Shown here one piece after another: positions 15,480 through 58,296 of a stretch of DNA of 64,000 nucleotides. The position numbers and the translations under genes were made by a program. The notes beneath the pieces are model-generated. The model saw nothing but the letters and a program-made list of their open reading frames with translations, was not told the origin of the DNA and searched no databases. Source of the DNA: Pseudomaricurvus alkylphenolicus (GTDB lineage Bacteria; Pseudomonadota; Gammaproteobacteria; Pseudomonadales; Cellvibrionaceae); contig NZ_JAAQPI010000001.1 of the NCBI RefSeq assembly GCF_011683955.1, positions 558,001 to 622,000 on the forward strand, written 5' to 3'. Numbering within the stretch: position 1 is the first letter of the stretch; each line of letters opens with the position of its first letter.

Positions 15480-15511
15480 ACACGACTTCAAGCGGTAGAG
15501 GAGATATCTCA

Positions 15512-22133: not shown

Positions 22134-22197
22134 ATCAGTCTCCTGTAATGACGCGTGGCCATCCCGCCACGCGTGTTGTTACCCGTTCAGTGTCAGT

Positions 22198-24438
22198 TCA
22201 ATAGTCAGCGGAAATCTCCAAACCCAGGGTTCTTGGGTAATCCAGGGTGACGATACCAGAGCCATCATTGATGGGCCCGTCCTCGTTCAGCAGATTAGCG
22301 CCCACCAAGTAGACTCCGAGTTTTTCGGTCTTGACACCGATCCTGGCACGTAGCAGATCACGTTTATCGCCAAAGCCTTTACTGCCGGCCACAAAGGCCA
22401 AGTCGCCGAAACCGCTGCGCTGCTCCTCGATATGACTAAAGGACGTATTGACGTGCAGCGTTAAGTTATCGGCGATCTCTCTCTGGTAATCAACCCCCAG
22501 CGTAAACGTCCAGTCAGGAACGAAAGACACCTTGTCGCCTTCGGCTGCACCATTGTCGATAGCGATTTGCTCCAGATTTTTCAACTCGGAGCTGTTCCAG
22601 TTGCCCACCATGTTCAGCGTCAGGCCAGGAATTGCTTGAGGCCTGGCTGTCAGGGAGAAGTCAACCCCATAGATCTCTGCATCGCCGGCACCGATCTGTG
22701 CATTGACCGTAACAAAGTTGACAAATTCACGAACGCCCTGCCAGTCCATGTAATAAAGTGCGGCATCCCAAGTGACTTGGCCGGACAACCAGGATTGCTT
22801 GGTGCCCACTTCATAGCTCCATAACTTGTCTGAGGGCACTGAGGCGGGACAGCCAGTGGTAATTGGACATAGCGCACTGGTATTGGCGTTACCCCCACGA
22901 AAGCCTTTGGCAATATTGACATAGTAGGTCGAGCCATCCGTCGGATAATAGGCAAGATTGAAACGTGGATTGGTGCTGTTAAAGCGTAATTCACCAGAGT
23001 CTTCCGAATTCGGGATACTGCCCAAAGGCAGCGCCGGGTCATGCAGTATTGCGCCATTCCCCATGCTCGACACCGAAATATTGGTGATTGAGTCGGTCGT
23101 TGAGCGGAAGTCTTCCTCGTAGTAACGCAGGCCAAACAGAGGAACCAACTTGCCCTCCATCAGTTCATAAGATATTTCTCCGAATACAGCAATGGTTTGC
23201 CTTTCTGTCGCGGCCAATGAGCTGACATCAGCGATCACCGTATTGCCGTCAGCATCGGCGCCAAATGGCAGCAGGTTTTCCGCCACCGAGGCTTCCTTGA
23301 TATCCAGCGTGTCATCTGAGTAGAACAGCCCGAAAACCCAGCCCAACGGACCCTCACCAGCCGATGCCAGCCTGGTCTCATTACCAATATAGGAACGCTC
23401 CTCCAGCGTCTGCTGATTAAGTGCCGCGAAACCGGCAATTTCGACATCCAGTAAGCCCCTTTCCTCCCACTCGATGGAGGTCGTGACTGTGGTCAACTCA
23501 GCAAATCCGAGGTCATAATTTATGGTACCCGCTAGCATCAGATACTCGTCTTCTCTGACATCATCCGGCCCACCATTGACGAAACCGTTATTGGCCAAGG
23601 TAAAGCTGCCAACCGTACCAAATTCAGACTTGTTGTATTGGGCCAATAGACTCGCCGATAGATCGGAGGCCGATTCATAGCCGAGAACGGCTCGCACACT
23701 TTTGATCTTGCCGCCATCCTGGTTTTTACCCGTAACCGCACCTGGTGCACCGGTATCACCAAAACCGCCAACTTCCTCATAGCCGCCGGCCACGCGCAAG
23801 GCCAGACTTTCGTTAATCAGGGGTACATTTATCGCGCCATATGCGTGGTGGTTATTAGCCCCTCCCTCGGTCTCAGACCATCCACCAAAGCCACTGACTT
23901 CAAACTCCGATAGATTGGGAGCATTGGGAATAAACCGTACAACGCCCCCCATGGCACCATTACCATAGAGTGTCGACTGCGGCCCGCGAAGCACCTCTAC
24001 CCGCTCCATATCATACAAACGGGAAGTCGGCGCTTGAGGCGCGCTGAAAAAGGCAGCATCCCCGAGATAGTATCCTGTTGTGCCTTCCGAGATATTAACG
24101 TTTTGTGCGATACTGCGAATATTAATGATTTTTTGAGCGCGAGAGCCTGAACTCAATCCCTCAGATACCCCTGGCACCAGCTGAACAGCTTCAGCCAAAT
24201 CAAGCATTCCAGAATCTTTCAGACTGTCACCACTGATAGCAGAAATAGCAAGCGGAACGTCGGAGAGTGCCATAGCCCCCTTCTTAGTAGCTGTAACGAC
24301 TATTTCCTCTATTTCGAAATTATTGTCTTTGGTTGGTTCACTGACTTCGTTTGCTTGCACGCCATTACCGGTAACAGCGATCAATGCGATAGCTGTTGTC
24401 AGTATTTTATTGTCTCTTCTCTTTACAGTGATAGACAC
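22198..24438 (-). CDS. TonB-dependent receptor
   Basis: 746 residues. Starts at GTG with GAGGAG 7 nt upstream; this start places the signal peptide (KRRDNKILTTAIALIAVTG) at the N-terminus, whereas a longer in-frame reading to 24582 adds 48 residues before it and is rejected. TonB box region EIEEIVVTATKKG near 42-54, plug domain with VEVLRGPQSTLYGNGAMGG, and a full barrel ending in the aromatic C-terminus (LEISADY). Controlled by the TetR operator at 24631-24646, which fills the spacer of its promoter. Probably imports the substrate of the downstream protease and amidohydrolase genes. Confidence 0.94.
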   Translation of the reverse strand: MSITVKRRDNKILTTAIALIAVTGNGVQANEVSEPTKDNNFEIEEIVVTATKKGAMALSDVPLAISAISGDSLKDSGMLDLAEAVQLVPGVSEGLSSGSRAQKIINIRSIAQNVNISEGTTGYYLGDAAFFSAPQAPTSRLYDMERVEVLRGPQSTLYGNGAMGGVVRFIPNAPNLSEFEVSGFGGWSETEGGANNHHAYGAINVPLINESLALRVAGGYEEVGGFGDTGAPGAVTGKNQDGGKIKSVRAVLGYESASDLSASLLAQYNKSEFGTVGSFTLANNGFVNGGPDDVREDEYLMLAGTINYDLGFAELTTVTTSIEWEERGLLDVEIAGFAALNQQTLEERSYIGNETRLASAGEGPLGWVFGLFYSDDTLDIKEASVAENLLPFGADADGNTVIADVSSLAATERQTIAVFGEISYELMEGKLVPLFGLRYYEEDFRSTTDSITNISVSSMGNGAILHDPALPLGSIPNSEDSGELRFNSTNPRFNLAYYPTDGSTYYVNIAKGFRGGNANTSALCPITTGCPASVPSDKLWSYEVGTKQSWLSGQVTWDAALYYMDWQGVREFVNFVTVNAQIGAGDAEIYGVDFSLTARPQAIPGLTLNMVGNWNSSELKNLEQIAIDNGAAEGDKVSFVPDWTFTLGVDYQREIADNLTLHVNTSFSHIEEQRSGFGDLAFVAGSKGFGDKRDLLRARIGVKTEKLGVYLVGANLLNEDGPINDGSGIVTLDYPRTLGLEISADY

Positions 24439-24889
24439 ACTCTTTCTCCTCAAATGTTTGGCCAGCTGCAGTAGTATTGTATGTAAGCCAAGGTAATACG
24501 CTGAATACGCAGGCATGATGCGTAGCAACCTGGCGATGTATCGATATTGGAAGAGCGTGTTCTTCAAATCACGCATTTTCAAATCGTCGCCATTTTTATA
24601 ATCCGATGGGATTATCTGTTAAATAGATTACTACACGATCGTGTAGCCGACAAGGGTGAGGAACTTACTTTTTTATTTCTGCCAGGGTGCTTCTTATTTC
24701 TTTCCGAAATATCTCAACAAGAGAACAAGCCTGTAATCACGGCTAACGATACGCGGACGATGTCTTATCGTAGTGTTTAGAGGTAGGGGAAACGAATGGC
24801 ATACTGGCTGCTGACTAGCAGCCCAGGAAAGGTATCAGAGCATGTTTGCTGCGTACTGAAGTGCCGAGCAACATTAAATGCAAGACAGA
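24439..24889. other. Intergenic region between receptor and TetR gene
   Basis: 451 bp without a gene. It holds the receptor promoter with its TetR operator (24625-24653). The remainder, up to the TetR stop codon at 24890, shows nothing I can name; the short readings on the plus strand have no homology I recognise. Confidence 0.6.
24625..24653 (-). promoter_or_regulatory. Receptor promoter with TetR operator in its spacer
   Basis: Minus strand -35 TTGTCG (24648-24653), 17-nt spacer, -10 TAATCT (24625-24630). The spacer contains a perfect 16-bp palindrome CTACACGATCGTGTAG at 24631-24646, so a bound repressor would block RNA polymerase directly. A near copy lies at the TetR promoter. Confidence 0.82.
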
Positions 24890-37084: not shown

Positions 37085-37203
37085 ACTGATGCCTCCGTTC
37101 TGACCAGTTATCGAACCATTCTCACAAACCGACAACTAGCATTTTGAGTGGGTTTTCATTTAAAATACGTCCTTGGAAAATCAAAAAAAGGATGTCCAAC
37201 AGA

Positions 37204-37683
37204 ATGTCAAAAAAAGCCAGCCAACCTCGTGATCAATATTCTATCGACGATATTGACAAGGAGATCATTCGACAGCTTCGGGGCGATGGACGAATGTCCT
37301 ATCGTATTCTTGGACAAAATGTTGGTCTTTCTGAAGCAGCTGTCAGACAGCGAGTTAACCGCCTGCGGGAGAACAACATCTTTACGATTTCCGTCGTAGT
37401 CAATCAGGAAGCATTTGGCATCAATAGCAGCGCGACCATTGGCATCAATGCTCAAGGCGACCTAAGGAAGGTAGCCCGAAAATTGGCCGACATACCCGAA
37501 ACCGAGTATGTCAATATTACCGCCGGAAAATTCGACATTATCGTCGATGTTCTCGCCGCCGACAATAAAGAACTTTCAAGAATTATTATTGAGGAAATTA
37601 AGCCAATCAAGGAGATCACGGAAATATCCACCAACATTATCATGGAGAATTATAAGATCGCCTATGGCGCTGGCCCGAGCTGA
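37204..37683 (+). CDS. Lrp/AsnC-family transcriptional regulator
   Basis: 159 residues from ATG 37204: winged HTH in the first ~65 residues (IDKEIIRQLRGDGRMSYR, then VGLSEAAVRQRVNRL), followed by a RAM-type ligand domain that forms octamers in relatives. AAGGA lies 11 nt before this ATG; the ATG at 37192 and an earlier TTG at 37144 are alternatives. It converges on the F420 biosynthesis fusion gene, with 42 nt between stops, and an 8-bp hairpin overlaps its last codons. Confidence 0.85.
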   Translation: MSKKASQPRDQYSIDDIDKEIIRQLRGDGRMSYRILGQNVGLSEAAVRQRVNRLRENNIFTISVVVNQEAFGINSSATIGINAQGDLRKVARKLADIPETEYVNITAGKFDIIVDVLAADNKELSRIIIEEIKPIKEITEISTNIIMENYKIAYGAGPS

Positions 37684-37725: not shown

Positions 37726-40700
37726 CTACAGCAATACCGCAGAGATAACGCTCTCGTCACAGCTTTGAGCACTTGCTTCTAACACCTCATACAAGGTAGT
37801 TCTTTGGGCCGGCAGTCTGCCTGCAGCTCGAATAAGGTTAGCGAGCACAGATGCCGTCATTTGCTGACCGTGGCTGGCTCCAGCAGCTCGAGTAATACTC
37901 TCATTCATCAGCACCCCTCCCATATCATTGACACCAGCCGACAGCGCTAATCTCGCCCCTTGTGGCCCCAGTTTCACCCAGGATGCCTGTATGTTGGTAA
38001 TGTAGGGATTGAGAACCAAACGTGAGACAGCGTGCATTAGAAGTGACTCCCGTAAACTCGGCCCTCTACGGGACAGACCACGCTTATAAATGGGCGCCTC
38101 ATGGGCCACAAACGGCAGAGGCACAAACTCGGTAAACCCCATTGTCTCCTTCTGAAGGTCCAGAATAGCCAACAAATGCCGGGCCCAATGGGAATAATTA
38201 TCCACGTGACCGAACATAATGGTGGCGGTAGTGGGTATACCTAGTGCATGGGCTTCGCGCATCACCGTTAGCCACTGCTGAGTATTGATTTTGTCGGGAC
38301 AGAGAATTTCACGTACATCATCACACAATATCTCTGCGGCAGTGCCAGGAAGAGACTTCAGCCCCTTGCTTTTTAATTCCGACAGGAAGGTGTTCAGATC
38401 CAACCCCAGGGATTGCGCCCCATGCATTACTTCCAAAGGCGAAAATGCGTGGATATGCAGATCGGGTGCAACCTGGTGAATGGCGTTACAAATATTGATG
38501 TAGGTGTGTCCATCGTAGGAAGGGTGAATCCCCCCCTGCAAGCAGACCTCCGTTGCGCCCTGCGACTTTGCGTCTAATGCTCTGGTCTGGATTTCCTCCA
38601 AACTCAGGTTATAGGGCTTTTCCCTGAGTTCTTCTTGCACTTTACCCTTGGAAAATGCGCAAAATGTACAGTGATAACCACAAATATTGGTATAGTTAAT
38701 ATTTCGGTTAACGACGTAGGTAACCTGTTCGCCATTTGTGGTTCTACGCAACTTATCAGCGGCCGAACAGACAGCCTGAAAGTCCTTACCGCGGGCCGAG
38801 AAGAGTGTCACAATCTCAGCTTGCGTCAGCGTATCCCCCTGCTTTTCGACTTTCTCAAGAACCCGCTGAACTTCAACGGTAACGGCTAGATTTCCCAGTT
38901 CCGCGGCACCATCGAGCAACCGATAAAGCTCTGTGGGAACTATATCGCTTACTCCACTCAACCAGTCGTACTCGGAAGCGTAACCTTCACCATCAGCATA
39001 GCGCAGAATACCTGGACGCATGTTGTTGTCGCACCACTGATCCATTACCCGAACATAGTCCGGATAAACAGTCAATCGCTCGTGAAGCCACTTGCCCGCA
39101 GCGGCCGTTTTGTTTGCCAAAGAAGAAAGCTGAGGCCAGGGCGCCTCGGGATTCACAAAATCCGGGGTCAAGGGGGAGAGCCCCCCCCAATCGTTTATGC
39201 CTGCATTGATAAGGCTGGCCAGTGAATCGCGGTTCAGATTGGGAGGCACCTGAATACTCATTCCAGCGCCAAAAATAAGTCGAGCTACTGCTATAGTCCA
39301 TAACAACTCGTTATCATCAGGCTCTACACTTATGGCCATTTTGGTGCCGGGCTTGGCACGGAAATTTTGAACAATGACCTCTTGAATATGACCGTACTGC
39401 TGATGCAGTTGACGAATACTCAGTAGCGATTCGATTCGTTCATAGCGGGTTTCGCCAATACCTATCAGGATACCTGTCGTAAAAGGCACCCTCTTCTTTC
39501 CCGCACGCTCAATCGACTGCAGGCGAACTGAGGGTTCTTTGTCCGGCGATCCGTAATGAGGCATGCCTTTTTCGCACAGCCGCTCCGATGCGGACTCGAG
39601 CATAATGCCCATCGATGCGGAGACCCGCCTGAGCATATCAACCTCTTCCTCATCCATGCAGCCTGCATTGATGTGTGGTAGTAAGCCGGTTTCCTGATGA
39701 ATCCGTTTCGCCATATGGGCCACATATTCCAAGGTGGTCTTAAAGCCCATTTCCGCTAACGCCTTGCGAGCCGCGCTATAGCGCAACTCCGGCTTTTCGC
39801 CCAAGGTCAAGAGCGCCTCCTTACACCCCAGGTCCGCCCCCTGGCGAGCCACTTCCAGAACCTGTTCCTCACTCATGTAGAGGTAGCTGCTCTGGTTAGG
39901 TACTTTGGCAAAGGTACAATAGTGGCAGACATCGCGACATAGATGGGTCAACGGAATAAAGACTTTTTTCGAGTAGGTCACATAATTGCCAAAGCCCTGG
40001 TCCCGCAATCGACCCGCGACAGCCATCAAGGACTGCGTATCAATGGCTGTTGCCAACGACAGCGACTGCTCGTCGCTGATCACGTCACCAGCTTCAGCGG
40101 CAAGGATAACGTCCTTAACCTCTGCTGCCAGGCTATACTTTTCTAATAACTGATAGGTCGATCGATTATGGTATTGGCTATCATTAACCAACACCTTAAT
40201 CAATTTCTCCAATTGCTCAGGCGTATCAATGTCGACACCCAGAGCTTTTGAGCGTATCACCTTGACTCTGAGACCAACCGCAGTGGCCGCCTCCAAATGA
40301 CATTGAAAACTGTTCCTGCCATAAGACGGACTAAATCCACAACCAGTATCAACCAGTATCGCATTGGTCCCTTCATTGTCGGCACAGGGTACTAACACCA
40401 ACTCGGCTCCTTCAGCCTCGTGAACAATGGCAGATAGCTCTCGGGAATCAATCAATGGCAAATCAGCATGAACAACCATTGCGCGCTCAACTCCAGCAGA
40501 CGCGGCATCTTCGAGAGCGGCAGAGATTGCGCTATTGAGGTCCCTATCCTGCGGCAAGGCGAGCAACTCGCACCCCTCCGGTAAAGGTAGTTGAAAGAAG
40601 TCGCTATTGGAGCAGACCACTTTCACTCGATCAACAAATTCAAGAGCGTTCAGCTCATCGACCACATCCTTACACATGGCCTGCATAAACTCCCTTCTCT

Positions 40701-40773
40701 GATCTTCAGACAACACGCTTGACAACCGCGTTTTGTAGCTACCGAAGGATTTAACCGGTACTATTGCCCACAT
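37726..40773 (-). CDS. cofC-cofG-cofH: Trifunctional F420 biosynthesis protein: CofC-CofG-CofH fusion
   Basis: 1015 residues in one reading frame. Residues 1-200 are a CofC/FbiD-like guanylyltransferase (WAIVPVKSFGSYKTRL, MVVHADLPL, GLRVKVIRSKALGVDIDTPEQ) that makes the guanylylated 3-carbon linker of F420. Residues ~255-600 are CofG, a radical SAM enzyme with CxxxCxxC at 279, 283, 286 (VFIPLTHLCRDVCHYCTFA). Residues ~660-1015 are CofH, with CxxxCxxC at 698, 702, 705 (NYTNICGYHCTFCAFSKG). CofG and CofH together make the FO chromophore; in actinobacteria they are fused as FbiC. The additional CofC is unusual. TGAGG precedes the ATG. Fourth gene of a minus-strand run starting near 42481. CofD and CofE, needed to finish F420, are not in the window. 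Confidence 0.93.
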   Translation of the reverse strand: MWAIVPVKSFGSYKTRLSSVLSEDQRREFMQAMCKDVVDELNALEFVDRVKVVCSNSDFFQLPLPEGCELLALPQDRDLNSAISAALEDAASAGVERAMVVHADLPLIDSRELSAIVHEAEGAELVLVPCADNEGTNAILVDTGCGFSPSYGRNSFQCHLEAATAVGLRVKVIRSKALGVDIDTPEQLEKLIKVLVNDSQYHNRSTYQLLEKYSLAAEVKDVILAAEAGDVISDEQSLSLATAIDTQSLMAVAGRLRDQGFGNYVTYSKKVFIPLTHLCRDVCHYCTFAKVPNQSSYLYMSEEQVLEVARQGADLGCKEALLTLGEKPELRYSAARKALAEMGFKTTLEYVAHMAKRIHQETGLLPHINAGCMDEEEVDMLRRVSASMGIMLESASERLCEKGMPHYGSPDKEPSVRLQSIERAGKKRVPFTTGILIGIGETRYERIESLLSIRQLHQQYGHIQEVIVQNFRAKPGTKMAISVEPDDNELLWTIAVARLIFGAGMSIQVPPNLNRDSLASLINAGINDWGGLSPLTPDFVNPEAPWPQLSSLANKTAAAGKWLHERLTVYPDYVRVMDQWCDNNMRPGILRYADGEGYASEYDWLSGVSDIVPTELYRLLDGAAELGNLAVTVEVQRVLEKVEKQGDTLTQAEIVTLFSARGKDFQAVCSAADKLRRTTNGEQVTYVVNRNINYTNICGYHCTFCAFSKGKVQEELREKPYNLSLEEIQTRALDAKSQGATEVCLQGGIHPSYDGHTYINICNAIHQVAPDLHIHAFSPLEVMHGAQSLGLDLNTFLSELKSKGLKSLPGTAAEILCDDVREILCPDKINTQQWLTVMREAHALGIPTTATIMFGHVDNYSHWARHLLAILDLQKETMGFTEFVPLPFVAHEAPIYKRGLSRRGPSLRESLLMHAVSRLVLNPYITNIQASWVKLGPQGARLALSAGVNDMGGVLMNESITRAAGASHGQQMTASVLANLIRAAGRLPAQRTTLYEVLEASAQSCDESVISAVLL

Positions 40774-40852
40774 TTATATAACCTCAACCACTTTTTCTTC
40801 ACACAAATATTCTCGCAAGCAACATCTGGATAGACTTAACTCTGTTGCCGCC

Positions 40853-41509
40853 CTATTTTCCCGTAGTTACAACAATACCTGCACCGGGAATCTTGTATGC
40901 CTTATTTAGTGTTATAAGAATCGACGTCATACCTTCTACCGCAATGCTGTTGTTGATATTGCCAGCGTGCCAGGCATTCATTCCCGCGTCCCGGGCGAGC
41001 TCTATCACCAACGAGCGCGCTTCTTTATCGTTACCACACACCAAGACATCACACTGAATTTTGTGATCACTATTCAAATGTGCCGCAGCAATATTTTGAA
41101 ACGCTGAAACCACTTTTACATTTTCACCCAGTGTATCTTGCGCAATCATTCCCGCACTACCTGCTTCTGGAATACTGACAGTGCCCACTTTGGGCGGTGC
41201 AAGGCACACAGTCGTATCAATCACAATCTTGCCTTGCACCGCCGCCCTAACCTCTGCCAGCAAGGCAGCCTGGTGTGAGAAAGGCACAGAGACGACCACT
41301 ACGTCACCCTCAGCAGCAGCGGCCAGATTATCGCAGCCCTTTACTTCGGCTTCGGGTAAACGCTGCCTCACGGCGTTTGCCGCTTCAATGGCTCTATCCT
41401 CTATCCTCGAGCCAATAATAATCTTGTAACCGGCTTTAGCCCAACGGTATACCAGCCCGCCACCGAGATCCCCCGTTCCACCCAACACCGAAATAACGCT
41501 CTTATTCAT
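40853..41509 (-). CDS. npdG: F420:NADP oxidoreductase-like protein
   Basis: 218 residues. NADP-binding Rossmann motif GGTGDLGGG at 10-18, IIGSR near 31-35, and the C-terminal part that shapes the F420 pocket in Fno/NpdG (GNDKEAR, WHAGNINNS). It exchanges hydride between F420 and NADP and so feeds reduced F420 to the LLM enzymes. The fold also includes ketol-acid and 6-phosphogluconate reductases, but the length and the neighbour at 37726 favour Fno. AGG lies 9 nt before the ATG. Confidence 0.88.
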   Translation of the reverse strand: MNKSVISVLGGTGDLGGGLVYRWAKAGYKIIIGSRIEDRAIEAANAVRQRLPEAEVKGCDNLAAAAEGDVVVVSVPFSHQAALLAEVRAAVQGKIVIDTTVCLAPPKVGTVSIPEAGSAGMIAQDTLGENVKVVSAFQNIAAAHLNSDHKIQCDVLVCGNDKEARSLVIELARDAGMNAWHAGNINNSIAVEGMTSILITLNKAYKIPGAGIVVTTGK

Positions 41510-41563: not shown

Positions 41564-41995
41564 CTAGGTTAATAGCGCATCGTCAACAGCGCCCAATGAC
41601 TTGGCCATCTCCAGCGTGTCGCTGGCATACCACATATGTGTGACTTTCCCATTTTCGACGGCGAACATGTCTCGCATTTTCCAGGCGACATTCTTACCGT
41701 GGGCAGCAATGCCTTTGTAATCTGCTACAAATCTGGCCTTGAATATCGCGTCCAAGACCACCATGCCATTATCACCCGCGAACATAGCTTTGATATCAAA
41801 CTCACCATCGGCAAAAGCTATGTCTGAAGGTCTCAAAATCTTTTCCATAAGCTCCTCTTTCCCATGGACCTCGGCACGCATGGTCCAGTCATAGACAACG
41901 ACATCATCCGCGACAATCTCAAAGCCTTGCTCCAGTGTTTCCGCACTGAACATACTTTTGACAATTTCCAAGGCATCTTTATTTAAATTTGTCAT
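41564..41995 (-). CDS. SnoaL/NTF2-like protein
   Basis: 143 residues with the cone-shaped NTF2 pattern: N-terminal helices, then the long curved sheet (DVVVYDWTMRAEVHG, FDIKAMFAGDNGMVVLDAIFKARF, WKMRDMFAVENGKVTHMWYA). Relatives are small hydratases, isomerases or cyclases. ATG 41995 is chosen over a GTG at 42010; neither has a strong ribosome binding site. Between the GFA-like and F420 reductase genes, same strand, so probably co-transcribed with the F420 genes. Confidence 0.75.
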   Translation of the reverse strand: MTNLNKDALEIVKSMFSAETLEQGFEIVADDVVVYDWTMRAEVHGKEELMEKILRPSDIAFADGEFDIKAMFAGDNGMVVLDAIFKARFVADYKGIAAHGKNVAWKMRDMFAVENGKVTHMWYASDTLEMAKSLGAVDDALLT

Positions 41996-42067
41996 AAATT
42001 TATTACTCACTTATAAGAAAAGTGCATTTGCACTACCGCTGATCCGTTGACTGAATCAGCACCGAAA

Positions 42068-42688: not shown

Positions 42689-43714
42689 ATGAAAGTAGGC
42701 GTCTACCAACACGGTATTAACTGGAGCTGGGAGAAGGTAAAAGAATATTGGCTAACCGTGGATAAACTCGGTTTTGATGCCGGATGGATGATGGACAACG
42801 GCGTCTATCCCGATATGGATGGCAATATGCTTGATGTGTGGGAAACCTGGACGGTACTATCCATTTTGGCCGAAATCACCGACAACATCAGAATGGGCCC
42901 GATGGTCACCCCCTGCCGACGCAGAAATCCCGGATTGTTGGCTAAAATGACCGCCTGTATTGATCAGATCAGCAAGGGGCGACTTGATCTTGCTATAGGG
43001 TCTGGCGACGATCCCATCTACTTTGTTCCCTGGGGACAGACCTACCCCAAAGCGTCTGAGCGCGTAAAATACCTGAGTGAGGAAATCGAGATCCTCAAGC
43101 GGATGTGGACTGAAAAGGCTGTCAATTTCGAGGGTGAGTACTATACACTTGCCGAAGCCACGGCTGATCCCAAACCGCACCAGAATCCCCATATCCCTGT
43201 ATGGGTCGGTCTGGTGATGGGCAGAAAAGTCATGCCAAAATTGGCCGCTGAACAAGCAGATGCGATCAACGTGTACAACGCCAGTGATCGGGCTTCTGCC
43301 GAACTCTTGGCGCTGGTCGAGGAACACTGCGCGGAAATTGGAAGAGATTACCACGCTATACCCAAGTCGCGCAGCGTCAATGTCATCATGACCGATGGAA
43401 CGTTCAATCCATCTTCATTACCCACGCAAGCGGACGGATCATTCCCTCACGTTATAGGCAGCCCTGAAGAGCTCGCACAGGAAAGGGCAGCCACGCTGGA
43501 CATGCAGCATCAACGAGTCAAAGCCAGTGATGACAAACACAGCATCTATTCAAGAGTAACTGAACGCCATGTGATTGGCACGCCCGATGAGATTGTCGAC
43601 GAACTGAAAGAGATTGCCGGCAACACCTATGAACAGGTCATCATTCACGGCTTGAATACCATGGAAGACGTGCAAAGGTTTGCCTCCGACATATTGCCCA
43701 AGTTAAAAGACTAG
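42689..43714 (+). CDS. LLM-class F420/flavin-dependent oxidoreductase
   Basis: 341 residues of the luciferase-like TIM-barrel class. N-terminal strand MKVGVYQHG, cofactor-region motifs MVTPCRRRNPGLLAKMTACIDQISKGRLDLAIGSGD split over about 70-108, and ERVKYLSEEIEILKRMW near 122-138. The GRLDLAIGSG pattern is typical for F420-using members (Mer, Fgd, MSMEG-like), and the adjacent F420 genes make F420 the likely cofactor. Use of FMN cannot be excluded from sequence. AGAGGAAAC precedes the ATG. Co-transcribed with the next LLM gene (53 nt gap). Confidence 0.88.
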   Translation: MKVGVYQHGINWSWEKVKEYWLTVDKLGFDAGWMMDNGVYPDMDGNMLDVWETWTVLSILAEITDNIRMGPMVTPCRRRNPGLLAKMTACIDQISKGRLDLAIGSGDDPIYFVPWGQTYPKASERVKYLSEEIEILKRMWTEKAVNFEGEYYTLAEATADPKPHQNPHIPVWVGLVMGRKVMPKLAAEQADAINVYNASDRASAELLALVEEHCAEIGRDYHAIPKSRSVNVIMTDGTFNPSSLPTQADGSFPHVIGSPEELAQERAATLDMQHQRVKASDDKHSIYSRVTERHVIGTPDEIVDELKEIAGNTYEQVIIHGLNTMEDVQRFASDILPKLKD

Positions 43715-43767: not shown

Positions 43768-44772
43768 ATGGAAGTATCTACTTTAATGGTCGGTTGGGGC
43801 TGGAGCTTTGAGCAGCTGAAAGCGGGCTGGAAGGAAATTGAGGAGTTGGGATTCGATGCGTGCTATATGGGGGACGACCTCTTCCCTCACTATTTTGACG
43901 ACGATGTTGAAAACGCGCAGAGCCAGGTTGAGGTTTACGACCCCTGGACGATTCTACCCATCATGGCGGATTCAACCAGCCGAATGCGCATCGGCTCCCT
44001 GGTATCACCGGCGGGCCGGCGTCACCCCGCGCTGTTCGCCAAAATGACCAGCATCGTTGACACCATATCCAAGGGCCGCCTGACCGTCAGTATGGGTGCC
44101 GGGAATTCACCTGACCAGAGAGCGGCGTTAGGAGAGCCCAATTTATCCGGCATGGGGCGGGCGGCAAGGTTGGAGGAGGAGGTTCGCATCCTGGACTCCC
44201 TCTGGAAAAATGAGCGAAGCAGCCTAGAAGGCCAGTACTACACCGTCAACAAGATGGTGAACTACCCGAAACCCGTCAGCAAACCCAGGCCAGAAATCCA
44301 AATTGCCTTCAAGAGTAAAAAGTTCCTCACCCGCTTGTCTGCAGAGTTTGCCGATCGCGTCAACTTGATCGGCGGGGACGACTCAATTGCACAGGGCGCG
44401 CTCGATGCGCTGAAGAGTCACTGTGAGGACCTTGGCCGCGACTATAATCAGATCAAAAAAGGTAGGTTGTGTGCCATTATGTTTACGGACGAAGAAGTCG
44501 GACCAGATCAGCTGGACAGGGTTCTGGAAGAGCGCGCCCGCCAGATTGGAAAGAAAACCGAGGATATGCTTGATGAACACAAGGACTTGGTTCTGTCCTA
44601 TGTCGGTCCGGCCAGCGGTTGTGTCGAGGCCCTCAAAAAGCGCACGCTGGATATGGGGATTGATGAAATCGTCATGTGTCCCGATACTATCAGCGAGAAT
44701 AGTTATGAGAACACAATGAAGGGGCTGCGGTTTTTTGCCAAAGAAGTGATGCCAGGGCTAAAGGCTCTTTAA
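43768..44772 (+). CDS. LLM-class F420/flavin-dependent oxidoreductase (paralog)
   Basis: 334 residues, the same class as the preceding gene, with parallel motifs: VSPAGRRHPALFAKMTSIVD, SKGRLTVSMGAGNS, and EEEVRILDSLWKNERSS. Sequence is diverged enough that it should act on a different substrate or as the partner subunit of a heterodimer, as in bacterial luciferase. GAGG precedes the ATG. Followed after 195 nt by an MFS transporter. Confidence 0.88.
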   Translation: MEVSTLMVGWGWSFEQLKAGWKEIEELGFDACYMGDDLFPHYFDDDVENAQSQVEVYDPWTILPIMADSTSRMRIGSLVSPAGRRHPALFAKMTSIVDTISKGRLTVSMGAGNSPDQRAALGEPNLSGMGRAARLEEEVRILDSLWKNERSSLEGQYYTVNKMVNYPKPVSKPRPEIQIAFKSKKFLTRLSAEFADRVNLIGGDDSIAQGALDALKSHCEDLGRDYNQIKKGRLCAIMFTDEEVGPDQLDRVLEERARQIGKKTEDMLDEHKDLVLSYVGPASGCVEALKKRTLDMGIDEIVMCPDTISENSYENTMKGLRFFAKEVMPGLKAL

Positions 44773-46745: not shown

Positions 46746-48974
46746 CTACCTTTGCAGCCAGCTATAGATAAATTGCCCGTGCATGGCCTCAGCGATTTCA
46801 CGCAGCTGATAGCTGAACTTGGTATTACCATAGCGGGCTGACAGGTGGCTCGCCAAAAGTCCCAAACTGTTGCCGCGAATGGATAGTAGATCGGGTTGTT
46901 GCTTATAGATATTCAGATAAGCATTTTTAGCCTGTTCGAAGTGCCCGTTGACCAACAATTCCAGTGGCTTCTGCTGTTGCTCACTGAGTGGCTTAAGAAC
47001 CCGAATAGGACTGCCCAATTGATGCCACTCTAACATCTTGTCTTCACGAAGCCGGAGTTTAACGCCAGACATGTCCGTTAGCACTTCTCTATCATCAACA
47101 GGATAAAGCGATGAAAACACCGTTTCGGTAACCTCCATCTGCAACTGCCCATCGGCCAGATAAATCTTAAGGGCTTTGTCCGGGCTGAAATCGTAACGAC
47201 CAATCCAGCCATGTGCCGCAGTTTCCGACAGGGTAATGCCAGATTGAGGTGTTGTTTTATAAGCAAGCACTGCTTCTAGAACTGGATCCCTCCCCTCCAG
47301 GATATCTTGCATTGCAGTGGTGACGGGAATATCCAAAGCAATGGCGTCGCGCCCGTCGTTATCGTAGGTGCTGATCCACTCAGAGAACGATAAGCTAACG
47401 ATGGTACGTGAATTGGGTAAAAGGTATTTCGCCTGTGGACCGGCCTCGCCAGCAAAAGAGGCTCTGTCTCCCACCTTCTCTCCCGCAAATAGCGTCCGGG
47501 TTTTGATCTCCATATTCCCCGAGAAATTGATTGCCGCGGAGAATGTGTTTCGACCTGTAATAACAAACAGTTTCCCGCGCTGGTTTATACTCTTGCGTTC
47601 AGCGATACCGTTGATCAACAGGGCATTAAGATGGGAATTCCCACCTCCGTTATTACGGACATCGACAATCAGTTTTTGAGGGTAAAACTCATCTATCGCT
47701 TGTAATACCTGACCACTGAATGTCGCGATTTCCCCCTTGGTCCGCTCTAAAGCTGACCCGTAGTAAACATAGAGCGTTTTGTCCTTATCCAGGTATTCAA
47801 ACCATCGGGACTTCCCCGAATTTAGCAGATAGAGTGGCTTGGGTCCCTTCAGATCCTGGAGAGTTTTAAAGTTCACTTCACCGATTGACCGCTGTTCTTT
47901 TTGAAAACGATGGCTTGTACGTTCACCGTCCGACAAAATTAGAGACAGGGTTACTTGTTTGTCCGATTCCGCTATACCAACCGCCTTCAGCAATCCAGCG
48001 TAGTGGTATACGAACCTGGAGTGATTCCTGTAGCCGGATTCATTGACGGCTGGAATTTGCCTGGCCATTCGGCGAGCCGCTTCTGCCACGGGCATTGCGT
48101 CAAACGCCGTAATCTTCGCCCCCAACAGGTGTTCATACTGTTCATCCACGCGAGTCAGAAACAGGCCATTTTCAAACCACTCGACGCCAAAAGAATAGAA
48201 TCCAAAACGTTCTCGATTATTGACTATGTAGGAATGCCCGTCGTTAATATAAGCAACCAGTGCATTGAAGTAGCTGTTCACGACGTGGGGGTCAACAGCC
48301 CCCGTTGATTCGATGTAGTCTTCAACCTCATCGACAAGTGACCTATAGCCGGACTCGCCCCTGGACCAGAATGGATTGACATGATCGTTGCGAATGAAAG
48401 AATCCAATTGCCGCAGGTCTTGCAACCATTGCTCTTTGGTTAGATCAGATCTTACCCTGTTAGGTGTGAGTGAATTCAGATATTTTTGGTAGCGAGTTTT
48501 TATCCTGGGAGAAATAAAGGATATCTTCATCGGAAACCGGTGCAGGGCAACACCTGCTTTGGAAAAATAGTCCAGTGTGTCGGTGCTGATGTCGCCATTG
48601 CCCAACGCGTTCAAGCCTCCATATTCAGTCTCAAGACGGTGTTTCAAATCGGGAAATGGCTTGCGAATATTGAAAATGTGAACCAGATCCAAACGATCAT
48701 CACTGAATATCAATTGGACAGATCGCTTTTGCCCCAGGTACAGAAAGCCCGAGCATTCCAATTGTCGCTCTGTAGCGGCGCTTTCATCGATTCTGTTTTG
48801 ATTGGTCTGAATTCTTAGGTGGTCGCATCTCCCGAACAGTTTGCTTTTGACATTATCTATACTTGCGCCAAATGGTGCTATGTTGTGAGCCAGCTGCTGT
48901 GCACCAGCCGGGGTTGTACACAGAAGCGCAAAGCAGAGCAGAAGGTGCCTCAAAAAAGGCTTTTGAGCAGTCAT
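46746..48974 (-). CDS. Secreted S41-like (C-terminal processing) peptidase
   Basis: 742 residues with a signal peptide (QKPFLRHLLLCFALLCTTPAGA, which ends near residue 26). The S41 core is in the middle: LIVDVRNNGGGNSHLNALLIN, then FVITGRNTFSAAINFSG, where the Ser of NTFSAA matches the S41 nucleophile position. The N-terminal 300 residues and the C-terminal 200 residues have no family I recognise. ATG 48974 is chosen for the signal peptide; ATG 48995 is the alternative. Substrate unknown. Confidence 0.78.
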   Translation of the reverse strand: MTAQKPFLRHLLLCFALLCTTPAGAQQLAHNIAPFGASIDNVKSKLFGRCDHLRIQTNQNRIDESAATERQLECSGFLYLGQKRSVQLIFSDDRLDLVHIFNIRKPFPDLKHRLETEYGGLNALGNGDISTDTLDYFSKAGVALHRFPMKISFISPRIKTRYQKYLNSLTPNRVRSDLTKEQWLQDLRQLDSFIRNDHVNPFWSRGESGYRSLVDEVEDYIESTGAVDPHVVNSYFNALVAYINDGHSYIVNNRERFGFYSFGVEWFENGLFLTRVDEQYEHLLGAKITAFDAMPVAEAARRMARQIPAVNESGYRNHSRFVYHYAGLLKAVGIAESDKQVTLSLILSDGERTSHRFQKEQRSIGEVNFKTLQDLKGPKPLYLLNSGKSRWFEYLDKDKTLYVYYGSALERTKGEIATFSGQVLQAIDEFYPQKLIVDVRNNGGGNSHLNALLINGIAERKSINQRGKLFVITGRNTFSAAINFSGNMEIKTRTLFAGEKVGDRASFAGEAGPQAKYLLPNSRTIVSLSFSEWISTYDNDGRDAIALDIPVTTAMQDILEGRDPVLEAVLAYKTTPQSGITLSETAAHGWIGRYDFSPDKALKIYLADGQLQMEVTETVFSSLYPVDDREVLTDMSGVKLRLREDKMLEWHQLGSPIRVLKPLSEQQQKPLELLVNGHFEQAKNAYLNIYKQQPDLLSIRGNSLGLLASHLSARYGNTKFSYQLREIAEAMHGQFIYSWLQR

Positions 48975-49042
48975 CTTTGCTTGATCATCCACCATCCAAC
49001 AGTCACGTTAACTGACTAGAGTGCATAAAGCTGTCTTTTGTT

Positions 49043-50839
49043 TTAGTAGGCAAATTCTTCGCTTTCCAATGCCATCAGATTGGCCGAGCCAGAGTGCATC
49101 ATCTTGAGGTGCGCACACGTCCTTGGCAAGATCCGCTCGAAGTAGAATTTCGCCGTTAACAACTTGGCTCGGTAAAATCCAGCCTCACTGTTTCCTGACG
49201 CCAGCTTTTCGCTGGCTACCGCCGCTGCCTTTGCCCAGAAATAGGCGAGCACCACATAGCCCGAGAACATCAGGTAGTCAACCGAGGCGGCCCCTAACTC
49301 ATCCGGGTTTCCGGCGGATCTCTCCGAGATAGCGGTTGATACACTCTCCCACTCATGAATGGAACATTCGAGCGGTTCAACAAACTCAGTGAGGTTCTCA
49401 TTGTCCGCATGGCGATTACAGAACTGCTTTGCCAGCTGGGTAAACTGCATCAGATTCTCGAGCCCGCTGCCCACCACCTTACGCCCCAAGAGATCCAGGG
49501 CCTGGATGCCGGTAGTGCCCTCGTAAATTGTTGCAATGCGGCTGTCCCGGACATTTTGCTCCACGCCCCACTCTTGAATATAGCCGTGGCCACCAAAACA
49601 CTGCAGCGCCAAGTTGGCCGCTTCAAACCCTGCCTCCGTCAGAAATCCTTTACCTATGGGAGTCAGCAACGCCAACAGTGCTTCTGCATTGAGGCTATCG
49701 CCCTTGTTGTTGCTGCGCTTGAGAATATCAGCCTGCTGCGCACAGAAAGCGACCAGCATTCTGCCCCCTTCGGCAAATGCTTTTTGCGTCAGCAACATTC
49801 TGCGTACATCGGGGTGAACGATAATCGGGTCCGCTGCTGTATCGGGGCTCTTGACTCCCGACAATGAACGCATCTGCAGTCGCTCTCGTGCATAGCCGAG
49901 TGACTTTTGATAGCCCAGTTCAGCATGCATGACCCCTTGTAAGGCGGTGCCCAATCGCATGATCCCCATAAAGGTGAACATGCATTTGAGTCCCTTGTGA
50001 GGTTGACCGATCAGGAAACCTGTGGCGCCGTCAAAGTTCATAACGCAGGTCGCACTCCCTTTGAGCCCCATCTTGTGTTCCAGCGAACCACAACTCAGGC
50101 GATTGCGCTGCCCCGGGTTACCGTCAGCGTCCGGCAGGAACTTGGGTACCACAAACAACGATATGCCCCTCGAGCCTTCCGGTGCATCCGGCAGACGAGC
50201 CAGAGCGACGTGAACAATATTGTTCGCCATATCGTGCTCACCGGCAGAAATGAATATTTTGGTTCCCTGAATATTATAGGAGCCGTCGCCATTGGGAGAT
50301 GCCTGACTGCGCAGCAGCCCCAGATCCGTGCCGCAATGGGGCTCCGTCAGGCACATGGTGCCTGTCCAGCTTCCTTCAACCAGCTTGGGCAGATAGATTG
50401 ACTTGACGGCTTCACTGGCGTGGGCTTGTATGGTGTGGGCGGCCCCGTGCGACAATGAGGCATACATGCTCCAGGAGAAGTTTGCGGTACCGATAAATTC
50501 ATTGAGCACGGAGTGAAGAGATTGTGGCAACCCCTGACCACCCAGCGACGGATCATGGTCCATTGCCGGCCACCCGGCAGCCACGTATTGTTGATAAGCG
50601 TCTCGGAAGCCCTCGGGGGTGGTGACTTCTCCGTCACTCCACTGACAGCCCTGTTGATCCCCCACGCTGTTGAGAGGTGCCAGCACCCGTTCGGCGAACT
50701 TGGCGCCCTCTTCCAGAATTGCGGTTACCAGTTCCGCAGTGGCCTCTTCGTAACCCATTGCCTGATAGTGTTGTTCAAAATCCAGGAGATCGTTCATGAC
50801 GAACTCTATATCTCGAAGGGGCGCTTTGTAGTCGGTCAT
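49043..50839 (-). CDS. Acyl-CoA dehydrogenase
   Basis: 598 residues, the long form with an extra C-terminal helical domain. FAD-binding motifs MCLTEPHCGTDLGLL and KIFISAGEHD near 160-210, and the base region IATIYEGTTGIQALDLLGRK near 425-445. It oxidises an acyl-CoA to the 2,3-enoyl-CoA. No partner ETF gene is in view. Start ATG 50839 has only a weak purine-rich site. Confidence 0.93.
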   Translation of the reverse strand: MTDYKAPLRDIEFVMNDLLDFEQHYQAMGYEEATAELVTAILEEGAKFAERVLAPLNSVGDQQGCQWSDGEVTTPEGFRDAYQQYVAAGWPAMDHDPSLGGQGLPQSLHSVLNEFIGTANFSWSMYASLSHGAAHTIQAHASEAVKSIYLPKLVEGSWTGTMCLTEPHCGTDLGLLRSQASPNGDGSYNIQGTKIFISAGEHDMANNIVHVALARLPDAPEGSRGISLFVVPKFLPDADGNPGQRNRLSCGSLEHKMGLKGSATCVMNFDGATGFLIGQPHKGLKCMFTFMGIMRLGTALQGVMHAELGYQKSLGYARERLQMRSLSGVKSPDTAADPIIVHPDVRRMLLTQKAFAEGGRMLVAFCAQQADILKRSNNKGDSLNAEALLALLTPIGKGFLTEAGFEAANLALQCFGGHGYIQEWGVEQNVRDSRIATIYEGTTGIQALDLLGRKVVGSGLENLMQFTQLAKQFCNRHADNENLTEFVEPLECSIHEWESVSTAISERSAGNPDELGAASVDYLMFSGYVVLAYFWAKAAAVASEKLASGNSEAGFYRAKLLTAKFYFERILPRTCAHLKMMHSGSANLMALESEEFAY

Positions 50840-50903
50840 TGCAATTTGCTCGCTCTGAGGGCAGGGTTTATGCAGTCAATTTACCGGCCATCCTGCGAGA
50901 CAT

Positions 50904-50922
50904 CCCCCCCTAATAGCAGGGG
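50904..50922. repeat. Poly-C/poly-G hairpin 1
   Basis: C7, loop TAATAGCA, G4. First of seven similar hairpins at 50904, 50957, 54193, 54243, 58263, 62704 and 62748. Confidence 0.6.
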
Positions 50923-50956
50923 AAGGGCAATGTATCTCGTTAAAAAGATGACCATT

Positions 50957-50984
50957 CCCCCCTCCCCCCCCATTTTTGAGGGGG
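50957..50984. repeat. Poly-C/poly-G hairpin 2
   Basis: C6-T-C8, loop ATTTTTGA, G5, then CAAAAAAG. Confidence 0.65.
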
Positions 50985-51052
50985 CAAAAAAGTATCACTC
51001 CTCTAAGCTACACGGAAATGCGACGTTACTGACGCAAGAGGCGATATCCGTG

Positions 51053-51187
51053 ATGACTACATTTAAGCAAGCCGCAGCGATTGTTGCCATTTCCCTGGTT
51101 GGGGCGCTTCTATGGGCCGTTCAAGAAGCGCAGGCCGGCCCCCCTGGTTTTATGGCATTCACCTCATTCAATACCTTGCTGATGTAG
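51053..51187 (+). CDS. Possible small secreted peptide
   Basis: 44 residues: a charged start, a hydrophobic stretch (AAAIVAISLVGALLWA) and a short Gly/Phe-rich tail ending NTLLM. It reads like a signal peptide followed by a few residues. AGAGG lies 11 nt before the ATG. No homolog recognised; it may be decayed sequence. Confidence 0.25.
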   Translation: MTTFKQAAAIVAISLVGALLWAVQEAQAGPPGFMAFTSFNTLLM

Positions 51188-51198
51188 CCGCGTCGATA

Positions 51199-52710
51199 TC
51201 AGTTCGCCACTGGCTGCGTACGACGAATGGGTAAACCGGGATATACCTTTTCCAGCAGCTGATAGTCAGCAACAACCGGTGTGCCATTGACGATAACATG
51301 AGAAATACCTGCAGAAGGCAGGTCTGCCTTTATATAGTCCGCCTTGCCCGCTATCCGCTGGGTATCAAAGATCGTGATATCGGCAATCATTCCTTCCTGA
51401 AGCCGGCCACGAAGTCTCATTTGAGGAACGGATTTTTGCAGACGCTGTGCTGGTAGCAATGACATTTTGCGCAGCGCCTGCATAAGGGTCAGGCTCCCGT
51501 TTTCCCGCACGTAGTGCCCCAGTATATGCGCGTAGGTCGCCGCGCCGCGCGGATGCCCCTTGCCATTGCTGAGATCCACGCTGTCACTGGCAATCATGAC
51601 CATGGGGTGAGCAACCGCCATATCTACATTATCCTGAGACATGATATGGGCGATCACCTCGGTTTCCGGTTTGTTGCGCTTGAGTTCCATAAAGCTCGCC
51701 TGCGTTAGTCGTTCCCCGCTTTCAAGCAGCTCCAGATCGCTGTAGTCGATGCGGAATATCGCCAGGCCACCTTCGCGGGTAATCCGCGGATCTGTAAGGT
51801 TGGAGGGTGCGGCATTGTATGGATAGACTTCGGTGGACACATCGACCCCATTCTTTTGGGCTTCGGACAAAATGTTCAGCAGCTCCCTGGTCTCCCACAG
51901 GCCACTGCTGTTGATATGCACCACATGAATCGAAGCGCCGGTTGTGGCTGCCGCGTGTACGATCTCGTGACCTGACTGGATCGGAGATACCTGCCCCAGA
52001 GATCGAATATGAACGAAATTGGTCACCTGCTGCCGGGCAGAAAATTCGTACAAATCCAGCATTTCCGCTACATTCGAACCCGGGGTATAGACCAGGTGAT
52101 AGCCGATTCCCAAGCCTCCTTCTTTCAGTCCCTGGTGAAGCAGTTGCTTTACCTTCGCATGCTGCTCCGGTGTCGCGTTAGCGACTGACCATTGTTTTTG
52201 GTCTCGTACGGACTGCAGATCATGCTCGGAGGCACCCGTCAACGCTGCAGGGTCTATGGCATCAAACGCCAGTGCCCTCACCAGGGGATGGCTGACGGAA
52301 GCCCCATAGTTGATCGGCGCCTGGTGAGTTCGCTGTTGATACCACCGAGCCACCGGAAACACGCCAACCTCCAACTCCAGGGAAGTGGTCACCCCGTCCT
52401 GGACAGATCGTCGATAGCCATCGGCATTCTGGCTGTGATTATGCAGATCGATAAAACCGGGGGCGACCACCAAACCTTGGGCGTCAATGGTCTGGTTGCC
52501 TTTGAGAGCCCGGGAAGTGATAGCAGCGATTTTTCCATCTCGCACCGCCACATTTTTAACAGCATCATGCCCTGTTTCCGGGTCCATAACACGACCGTTG
52601 AGAATAACAAGATCAAACGCCGAAGGCGCTTGTGCACTTACAAGAGCTGAGCACAATAATGTACCAACAATGCCGATAATGGCTGTCTTTGTTAACCGTT
52701 TGTATCTCAT
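51199..52710 (-). CDS. Secreted D-aminoacylase (N-acyl-D-amino-acid deacylase) family amidohydrolase
   Basis: 503 residues with signal peptide (cut near VSAQA). The metal motif HNH is at 90-92 in FIDLHNHSQN, with VVHINSSG and the SDSVDL acid later. The C-terminal half matches D-aminoacylase/dihydroorotase-like proteins that release D-amino acids from N-acyl forms. A carboxylated Lys is not expected in this subtype. GGA lies before the ATG. Followed downstream (108 nt earlier on the strand) by a serine hydrolase; D-specific context supports the call. Confidence 0.86.
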   Translation of the reverse strand: MRYKRLTKTAIIGIVGTLLCSALVSAQAPSAFDLVILNGRVMDPETGHDAVKNVAVRDGKIAAITSRALKGNQTIDAQGLVVAPGFIDLHNHSQNADGYRRSVQDGVTTSLELEVGVFPVARWYQQRTHQAPINYGASVSHPLVRALAFDAIDPAALTGASEHDLQSVRDQKQWSVANATPEQHAKVKQLLHQGLKEGGLGIGYHLVYTPGSNVAEMLDLYEFSARQQVTNFVHIRSLGQVSPIQSGHEIVHAAATTGASIHVVHINSSGLWETRELLNILSEAQKNGVDVSTEVYPYNAAPSNLTDPRITREGGLAIFRIDYSDLELLESGERLTQASFMELKRNKPETEVIAHIMSQDNVDMAVAHPMVMIASDSVDLSNGKGHPRGAATYAHILGHYVRENGSLTLMQALRKMSLLPAQRLQKSVPQMRLRGRLQEGMIADITIFDTQRIAGKADYIKADLPSAGISHVIVNGTPVVADYQLLEKVYPGLPIRRTQPVAN

Positions 52711-52818
52711 TCGTAACTTTCCGCCGCAGGAATTGAAACCAGGTACTAATTCCTGACTGTAATTCTTGACTGATCAATACCTGTTGCTGATCGCAACCGG
52801 GGTAATTTGAGGGTCATC

Positions 52819-54090
52819 TCAAAACACAGACGCAACCAGCTTGGACAACTTATCTGCCCTGGCCATGGAGCTGTTGGTCAACACCACCACCACAAGCTCT
52901 TTTTCCGGGACGACAAAGTACTGCAGTGCGTAACCCGGCCCACCACCTCCGTGACCCACCAGTTCCACCCCTTGATCAACCCAGGTTTTGGTGCCATAGC
53001 CCAGGGCGAGATCCCTTTTACCCGCCCTGACTTCCTCTTTGTAGCCGGGCAATCGGCCTCCATAGATCACATTTTTGGCGTTTTCTTTGGACAGGATGCG
53101 GACGCCATCAAGCTCTCCCTGGTTCAACAGCATTTGACCAAACCGGCTCATGTCCGCGCCGGTACCGATCAATGAGGTTGAGGCCGCATAGTCGGTGTAC
53201 ATATACTTCAACCAGTGTCTGTCGTCGATTCGCTTTTGCGTGATGCCGTCGAGACCACCGGCAGGGCCCATGAGTTCGACCATTGCCGTGTAGAAACTGT
53301 AGTGGGTCTGGGTTCCCACGGCCGCCTTGTCCAGCATGTCCGCTCGATAAACAAAGTCGGTAGTTTCCATCTTCAGTGGTCCGAGAATTTCCTGCCGCAC
53401 ATAGTCCTCATAAGTCCCGCCGGTCACCGCCTCAATAATCGCTCCCAGAAGCACATAATTGATGTTGGTGTACTCACTCTGGCTGCCCGGTTCCCAGGCC
53501 ACGGTGCGATAATCCTGCAGCCGTTCATTGACCATACGGGTTTCACCCACGCGGGGCTCACCCGGATAATGCAGCCATTTATACATATCGAAGAAGAAAT
53601 CGGGCAGTCCGGAGCTGTGACTAAGAACGTGGTCGACCGTGACCTCTACCGGATTTCCGGATTGATCAATCGGCACAAAACCCGGCAAATAGGTGGTAAT
53701 CGGGTCGTGCAGTGACAGCTTGCCCGCTTCAATCAGTTGGAAGATGGCTACTGCCGTAAAACTCTTGGTCATGGACCAGAAGTGATAGACATGCTCGGAG
53801 GTCGCCGCAGCGCCAGTGATGCCATCTGCCAGGCCATACGCCTTGGCAAATACCGTCTTGCCACCTTGCAGAACCGTTACATCCATCGCCGGTGGCTGCT
53901 GTTCTTCCACCATGGCTGCGAAGTAGCGATCCAATTGCTCGATAGAGTCTACGTTCTGGGGAGGCTCGAGCGGCTCGGGCCCCAGCACAAAGAATGGAGT
54001 CAGATAGCCTCCAATCATGAGTATCACAGCGATCAACAATATGGCGCCCCATTTAGCGCCTTTTCTTGCAACGGTTATAAAAGTCGACAC
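52819..54090 (-). CDS. Serine hydrolase of the beta-lactamase / DD-peptidase family
   Basis: 423 residues. One N-terminal membrane segment (AILLIAVILMIGGYLTPFF) places the domain outside the membrane. SxxK is Ser106-Met-Thr-Lys109, YxN is Tyr207-Thr-Asn209, and the third element HGGGG replaces KTG. Relatives are D-aminopeptidases, esterases and EstB-like enzymes rather than true beta-lactamases. Start GTG with TGGAG 8 nt upstream. It lies between two amidohydrolases. Confidence 0.9.
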   Translation of the reverse strand: MSTFITVARKGAKWGAILLIAVILMIGGYLTPFFVLGPEPLEPPQNVDSIEQLDRYFAAMVEEQQPPAMDVTVLQGGKTVFAKAYGLADGITGAAATSEHVYHFWSMTKSFTAVAIFQLIEAGKLSLHDPITTYLPGFVPIDQSGNPVEVTVDHVLSHSSGLPDFFFDMYKWLHYPGEPRVGETRMVNERLQDYRTVAWEPGSQSEYTNINYVLLGAIIEAVTGGTYEDYVRQEILGPLKMETTDFVYRADMLDKAAVGTQTHYSFYTAMVELMGPAGGLDGITQKRIDDRHWLKYMYTDYAASTSLIGTGADMSRFGQMLLNQGELDGVRILSKENAKNVIYGGRLPGYKEEVRAGKRDLALGYGTKTWVDQGVELVGHGGGGPGYALQYFVVPEKELVVVVLTNSSMARADKLSKLVASVF

Positions 54091-54192
54091 TTATTAGTCT
54101 CCAGGGTTCTAACCATCATCCCGTCAGGGGCCAGCCGCAAGTCAACATAACCTGCGTGTTGTGCGTTACTTTAACAACCTGCCGTATGGCTT

Positions 54193-54213
54193 CCCCCCCG
54201 GTTCTAGGGGGGG
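54193..54213. repeat. Poly-C/poly-G hairpin 3
   Basis: C7, loop GGTTCTA, G7, followed by CTTTCTCTTCC. In the gap between divergent genes starting at 54090 and 54331. Confidence 0.65.
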
Positions 54214-54242
54214 CTTTCTCTTCCTCCCTACATAGCATCTAG

Positions 54243-54262
54243 CCCCCCACGATCGGGGGGGG
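54243..54262. repeat. Poly-C/poly-G hairpin 4
   Basis: C6, loop ACGATC, G8. 50 nt after hairpin 3. Confidence 0.6.
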
Positions 54263-54330
54263 CGTCTGCTGAACGAACGGGGCAGTATGGATACCAGTAC
54301 CAATTTTTGACAAACATGAGAGCAGAATCA

Positions 54331-55602: not shown

Positions 55603-55634
55603 TACTCAACATGATATAGAGAGGTATGAATGCA

Positions 55635-56885: not shown

Positions 56886-56910
56886 GTTAATCACCAGGCC
56901 ATTGCGGGAT

Positions 56911-58110: not shown

Positions 58111-58262
58111 GTTTGTACCTTTTTTGAAATACTGAAAGGCGCCCATTGAGATGAAATTCGAGCAAAAAAGTGGCCGCCACAGGGGGCGGCCTAGATGCAT
58201 GACAGATACAGAGAGAAAGAGATGTCATGAGAAAACAATTATGAAGAAACCTGGGCTACTTG

Positions 58263-58281
58263 CCCCCCCTGCTTTGGGGGG
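58263..58281. repeat. Poly-C/poly-G hairpin 5
   Basis: C7, loop TGCTTT, G6, between the start of the ammonia-lyase gene and the stop of the serine hydrolase gene. It could end transcription of the latter. Confidence 0.6.
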
Positions 58282-58296
58282 ATTGATCGCCTTGTG

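Follow-up and report, generated by a model that had tools for sequence, protein, structure and literature searches.

Does a single gene of Pseudomaricurvus alkylphenolicus encode CofC, CofG and CofH, three enzymes of F420 biosynthesis, and, if so, how did it arise and what would its product do? The question concerns positions 37726-40773 of the window, the whole 64,000-nucleotide stretch of DNA analysed, for which an unbroken frame of 1015 residues had been predicted, with no strand stated.

The fusion gene and its domains

The frame was confirmed on the minus strand, where it runs from an ATG to a TAG stop; the plus-strand translation of the same positions is interrupted by stops. As predicted, the three domains lie on one chain, in the order CofC-CofG-CofH according to both Pfam and NCBIfam. 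The Pfam matches comprise CofC (108 bits, cut-off 22), two Radical_SAM stretches and CofH_C at residues 878-1001. The NCBIfam equivalog cut-offs were exceeded for CofC (TIGR03552; 149.6 bits, cut-off 105), CofG (515.3 bits, cut-off 213.35), CofH (562.2 bits, cut-off 374.1) and CofGH (1100.1 bits, cut-off 1018), and 23 NCBIfam models gave a match without any one of them covering all three domains. Both CxxxCxxC motifs occupy the residues originally assigned to them (Table 1) and are invariant in the 28 aligned fused proteins, window included.

With CofG followed by CofH, a CxxxCxxC motif in each and the CofGH cut-off exceeded, this part of the chain resembles FbiC, the CofG-CofH FO synthase of actinobacteria and proteobacteria, and is predicted to be such an enzyme. 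The protein differs from the two-domain FbiC in carrying an additional N-terminal CofC of about 195 residues, followed by a short linker that is partly helical. FbiD/CofC, the 2-phospholactate or PEP guanylyltransferase (PDB 6BWH, 2I5E and 7P97), is normally free-standing, whereas the version in the window is the N-terminal part of a longer chain. FbiB, composed of CofE and a nitroreductase domain, is likewise a fusion of F420 enzymes in the available text of PMC8498797 and PMC6450877, but it joins other domains, for other steps, and the cofE of this genome is free-standing (256 aa). Internal GTG and TTG codons (194 and 195) lie 12 and 15 bases downstream of a GGAG, so that a separate CofGH product could also be translated.

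Table 1. Positions of the fusion gene, its domains, its neighbours and the four modules of the genome (window positions unless a locus is named)
Feature	Position	Strand	Remarks
cofC-cofG-cofH fusion gene	37726..40773	-	1015 aa; ATG start, TAG stop
CofC (phospho-acid guanylyltransferase) domain	40198..40773	-	Residues 1-192; Pfam and NCBIfam
Linker	40078..40182	-	Residues ~198-232; modelled helices 205-213 and 216-227
CofG radical SAM domain	39013..39978	-	Residues 266-587; CxxxCxxC 279/283/286
CofH radical SAM domain	37783..38826	-	Residues 650-997; CxxxCxxC 698/702/705
npdG, NADPH-dependent F420 reductase	40853..41509	-	203.9 bits, cut-off 149.8; immediately upstream of the fusion, same strand
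SnoaL-like protein	41564..42010	-	Upstream of the fusion, same strand; Pfam match
Luciferase-like (LLM) oxidoreductase	42689..43714	+	Best match TIGR03560 (F420-dependent), below its cut-off
Second LLM oxidoreductase	43768..44772	+	Best match TIGR03560, below its cut-off
Lrp/AsnC-family regulator	37144..37683	+	Convergent with the fusion gene
Module 1 (fused)	37726-41509	-	npdG + cofC-cofG-cofH
Module 2 (fused)	L087 7589-11399		Second fusion at L087 7589-10708, 1039 aa; true start probably a later ATG
Modules 3 and 4 (split)	L089 6354-10221; L090 8110-11875		Genes within each set overlapping

The CofC domain was aligned with HMMER to FbiD of Mycobacterium tuberculosis, using the residue list in the available text of Hasan et al. 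2022 (PMC8764529). Residues K8, L79, D104, G152, S155, D181 and D183 correspond to FbiD K17, L92, D116, G163, S166, D188 and D190; these seven positions do not include the equivalent of FbiD T148, which falls in an alignment gap. T148 aside, the phospho-acid-binding residues and the Asp residues predicted to hold two Mg ions are present. The absence of key binding residues from CofC, which the original prediction had named as evidence against it, was thus not found, all seven mapped metal- and substrate-binding residues being kept. Across the 29 fused proteins, the positions of D104, G152, S155, D181 and D183 are invariant. At L79, one protein has M and the other 28 have L; at K8, 23 have K, five have R and one has N. 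CofC enzymes of the 3-phosphoglycerate (3PG) type carry Ser or Thr at the position of FbiD G163, as given in the available text of PMC8764529. The occurrence of G152 where these enzymes carry S argues for a 2PL/PEP-type CofC in the window, on alignment evidence, and the 3PG-F420 type was rejected, G being present in 29 of 29 fused proteins. Among unfused CofC sequences, D or N replaces G at this position, which governs substrate choice in 3PG enzymes, in 25 of 103 (including L031, L034, L045 and L060).

An AlphaFold2 model of the chain (28-row alignment) had a mean pLDDT of 85.5 and a pTM of 0.79, the relative placement of the domains carrying no confidence measure. In Foldseek comparisons, the model has the fold of known CofC structures (TM by target 0.80-0.89 for 7P97 and 2I5E, and 0.78-0.84 for 6BWG/6BWH), and a radical SAM part of it matches MqnE (6XI9 and 6XIG). 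The linker was modelled to include two helices, with block pLDDT values of 67-90. In the four of seven fused pairs with unsaturated dS, three of them from a single clade and none including the window, dN/dS was 0.08-0.29 for CofC and 0.06-0.10 for CofGH, and the CofC parts of these four pairs are under purifying selection.

Distribution and origin of the fusion

The proposed search for the same three-domain order in other genomes was successful. The 145 CofGH rows assembled (137 distinct, window included) comprise 29 fused forms (28 distinct), 96 with cofC adjacent, seven with cofC elsewhere and 13 without cofC. In a contig scan, the best 80 of 586 confirmed relatives included 10 fused and 59 adjacent loci, two with cofC elsewhere and nine with no cofC in the stretch examined, shares that are biased because the ranking favours same-frame loci. 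Of 293 genomes sampled evenly from the order, 94 matched at E ≤ 0.001, weak and incomplete matches counted. A full CofGH frame is present in 65 of those listed, 18 of them fused, by a hand count that omits contig-end fragments and two genomes with stops inside the match (G249 and G138). Classification of the 65 was by direct ORF reading for 39 and by frame lengths, all under 1000 aa, for 26; split pairs displayed as a single long frame in the order scan (e.g. G166) were resolved by direct ORF reading. At C2:131737-133926 of G249, from the same genus, the CofG-CofH match is divergent, at 49% identity, and contains a single TAA.

No fusion was found in the 12 loci with full-length CofGH examined outside the own genome in a class sample of 369 genomes, of which 47 had a match of some kind. 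In a phylum sample of 398 genomes, 23 of them with a match, the sole other full-length CofGH, that of G769, is unfused, and none of the 10 plasmid loci examined, from 76 records with a match, was fused. The long open frames of L134, L041 and L072 contained no extra Pfam domains. The gammaproteobacterial context anticipated for the gene was borne out, and the order also includes Spongiibacter, Zhongshania and Seongchinamella, as judged from loci of those named strains whose CofGH also occurs, identical, in same-order genomes. The accompanying statement that F420 is rare in such hosts did not hold at the level of the order, given the 94 and 65 genomes above, but F420 genes are uncommon in the family, occurring in three of its 13 genomes listed in the order sample, own genome included. 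The CofC-CofG-CofH fusion is a genuine arrangement of known enzymes that recurs in other genomes. We found no description of it, or of multiple FO synthases, in the literature searched, and the text consulted of PMC8498797, PMC6450877, PMC8764529, PMC8571402, PMC11104420 and PMC11237513 does not mention the fusion; Ney et al. 2017 may contain an earlier mention.

In the CofGH tree (LG+G4, quick search, 145 rows), the fused label required 10 changes, at least eight of them forced by well-supported branches, and 10 changes were also obtained with a mixture model on 71 rows, at least five being forced. The CofC tree, based on a shorter alignment (132 rows), gave 11 changes, only three of them forced by well-supported branches. 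Monophyly of the fusions was rejected on the CofGH tree (AU test, p-AU 1.8e-11). The 71 rows used, out of 145, were 26 fused ones (of 29, three close relatives having been dropped) and 45 others hand-picked for spread. CofC and CofGH tree distances were correlated over 132 rows (Spearman 0.57, with none of 300 permutations as high), supporting overall the view that the two parts mostly travel together. The phylogeny recommended for establishing whether the domains share a history thus supports a common history in general, but the free CofC tree separates the CofC of the window from that of the second fusion in the same genome.

The arrangement of unfused genes suggests how fusions may have arisen. 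In the 96 rows mentioned above, cofC lies directly upstream of cofGH, often overlapping it: counted from the start codon closest to the cofC stop, 26 pairs overlap by four bases (ATGA), seven by one and six by more, and gaps of 0-10, 11-40 and more bases separate 26, 21 and 10 pairs, respectively. Paraburkholderia provides an annotated operon, npdG-cofE-cofD-cofC-cofGH. In 25 of the 96 pairs the two genes share a reading frame and are separated by one stop, 19 of these 25 coming from the set biased by ranking. As candidate readthrough sites, the in-frame junction stops are of all three kinds, TAA, TAG and TGA, in loci ranked towards the same frame. The one-stop loci from the best 80 of 586, a ranking that favours them, include L002, L003, L005 and L013. 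The distance from the CofC DxD to the CofG cysteines ranges from 53 to 134 residues among the fused proteins (automatic motif search, which may have picked a neighbouring DxD in some rows), and linker length differs between fused clades. Because unfused cofC usually abuts cofGH, loss of the intervening stop, sometimes with a small indel, could fuse them repeatedly, and the fusion most likely arose in this manner several times in proteobacteria, as judged from gene order and trees. Early fusion followed by repeated splitting is an alternative that change counts on the tree cannot separate from repeated fusion.

Copies of the F420 genes in the genome

CofGH genes and CofC matches each number four in this 8.9-Mb genome (99.6% complete, 2.1% contamination). 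They form four modules of npdG, cofC and cofGH (Table 1), two of them fused and all with an npdG above the cut-off. Three modules, including both fusions, are carried by a single 1.39-Mb contig. The genome has one cofD and one cofE match, adjoining and above cut-off, about 365 kb from the fusion on the same contig. Among 54 genomes selected for having CofGH, only this one has four copies, 52 having one and another two, the second of which lies near a contig end; a single CofD was found in 52 genomes, a CofD in two pieces in another and none in the remaining one.

The two fusions of the genome are sisters in the CofGH tree (SH-aLRT 99 with 145 rows and 98 with 71 rows). The copy at L089 clusters with Exilibacterium and a genome from the same family; the one at L090 branches elsewhere. 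These positions suggest that the four modules consist of one inherited set plus acquired ones. The two fusions share only 29% identity in their CofC parts, which are kept apart in the free CofC tree; a separate origin is nonetheless unsupported, since the CofGH parts are sisters and holding the CofC parts together gave the better likelihood (p-AU 0.82).

Two rival readings were weighed. One is that an assembly or sequencing error joined two genes: a lone stop separates the frames in 19 of the best 80 of 586 relatives, and one wrong base could imitate a fusion there. We consider this extremely unlikely, because a second, different fusion, of 1039 aa, lies on the same contig and other genomes also carry fused frames, among them that of the isolate Seongchinamella unica (L007), with the same architecture. 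The other is that the CofC part is a relic and that CofD is supplied by a separate cofC gene, of which the genome has two, both encoding proteins above the cut-off (148.4 and 140.3 bits). This too is very unlikely: the CofC of the window scores slightly higher than either, retains all seven mapped residues, and has fused counterparts under purifying selection in two other lineages.

Proposed function of the fused protein

The fusion had been suggested as a possible means of passing unstable intermediates from one domain to another. This part of the proposal needs revision: in the available text of the review PMC8498797, the unstable product of CofC and FO are the two substrates of CofD, so that the activities form converging arms rather than successive steps. 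Channelling from CofC to CofG/CofH was rejected by this pathway logic, neither product being a substrate of the other domain. The same text describes the two domains of FbiC as working by diffusion, so fusion need not imply channelling.

The best explanation, and a probable one, is that the fusion is a trifunctional enzyme of F420 biosynthesis making both CofD substrates, born by repeated stop loss. It is favoured by the scores of all three parts above equivalog cut-offs, the invariant CofC residues and the presence of cofD and cofE in the genome. We infer that all three activities operate and that F420 is made. The CofG and CofH domains are predicted to convert tyrosine and a riboflavin intermediate into the deazaflavin FO, and the CofC domain to activate a phospho-acid, of 2-phospholactate or PEP type, in a GTP-dependent manner. 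One chain would thus supply both substrates to the distantly encoded CofD. On our preferred reading, fusion would set a 1:1 supply of the two arms, and CofD may collect both products at one place. The available text of Hasan et al. (PMC8764529) describes the CofC product as tightly bound and suggests its direct transfer to CofD.

Whether the fusion brings any benefit is a separate matter. Abutting frames may simply have been joined by stop losses that only equalise amounts, recurrence reflecting gene proximity, and we give this somewhat less than an even chance. The ATGA overlaps, the same-frame pairs with one stop (mostly ranking-favoured) and the varying linker lengths of fused clades are all consistent with it, as is the dN/dS of 0.34 for the linker in the L007-L104 pair, above that of the domains (0.29 and 0.09). 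The persistence of fused forms through several whole clades and the partly helical linker modelled for the window point the other way, but neither is strong evidence of benefit. A bolder possibility, which we regard as rather unlikely, is recurrent adaptation: both CofD substrates would be brought onto one scaffold, with the labile activated linker set free by CofD docking on CofC only at the site of FO synthesis, and the entry pair with npdG would be a portable F420 supply kit, present here in four copies in differing neighbourhoods and served by a single CofD-CofE.

According to PMC8764529, measurements of CofC activity have all had CofD present, and the product of CofC is labile. For the question of how the two arms are matched, a natural chain that holds both and recurs in several lineages is a ready tool, as it is for F420 production in E. 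coli. The combination of four entry modules with one exit module would also allow tests of which step is limiting for F420 supply and of why a bacterium carries additional copies.

In the window, the npdG product and the two LLM proteins, the latter below the TIGR03560 cut-off, are plausible F420 users, and the fusion gene may serve these neighbouring oxidoreductases. From its position, the Lrp/AsnC protein is a possible regulator of the fusion gene. The regions 8479-24582 and 46746-60135 contain several genes for amidohydrolases, together with those for an amidase, beta-lactamase-family hydrolases, TonB receptors and an acyl-CoA dehydrogenase, a content that suggests a catabolic region.
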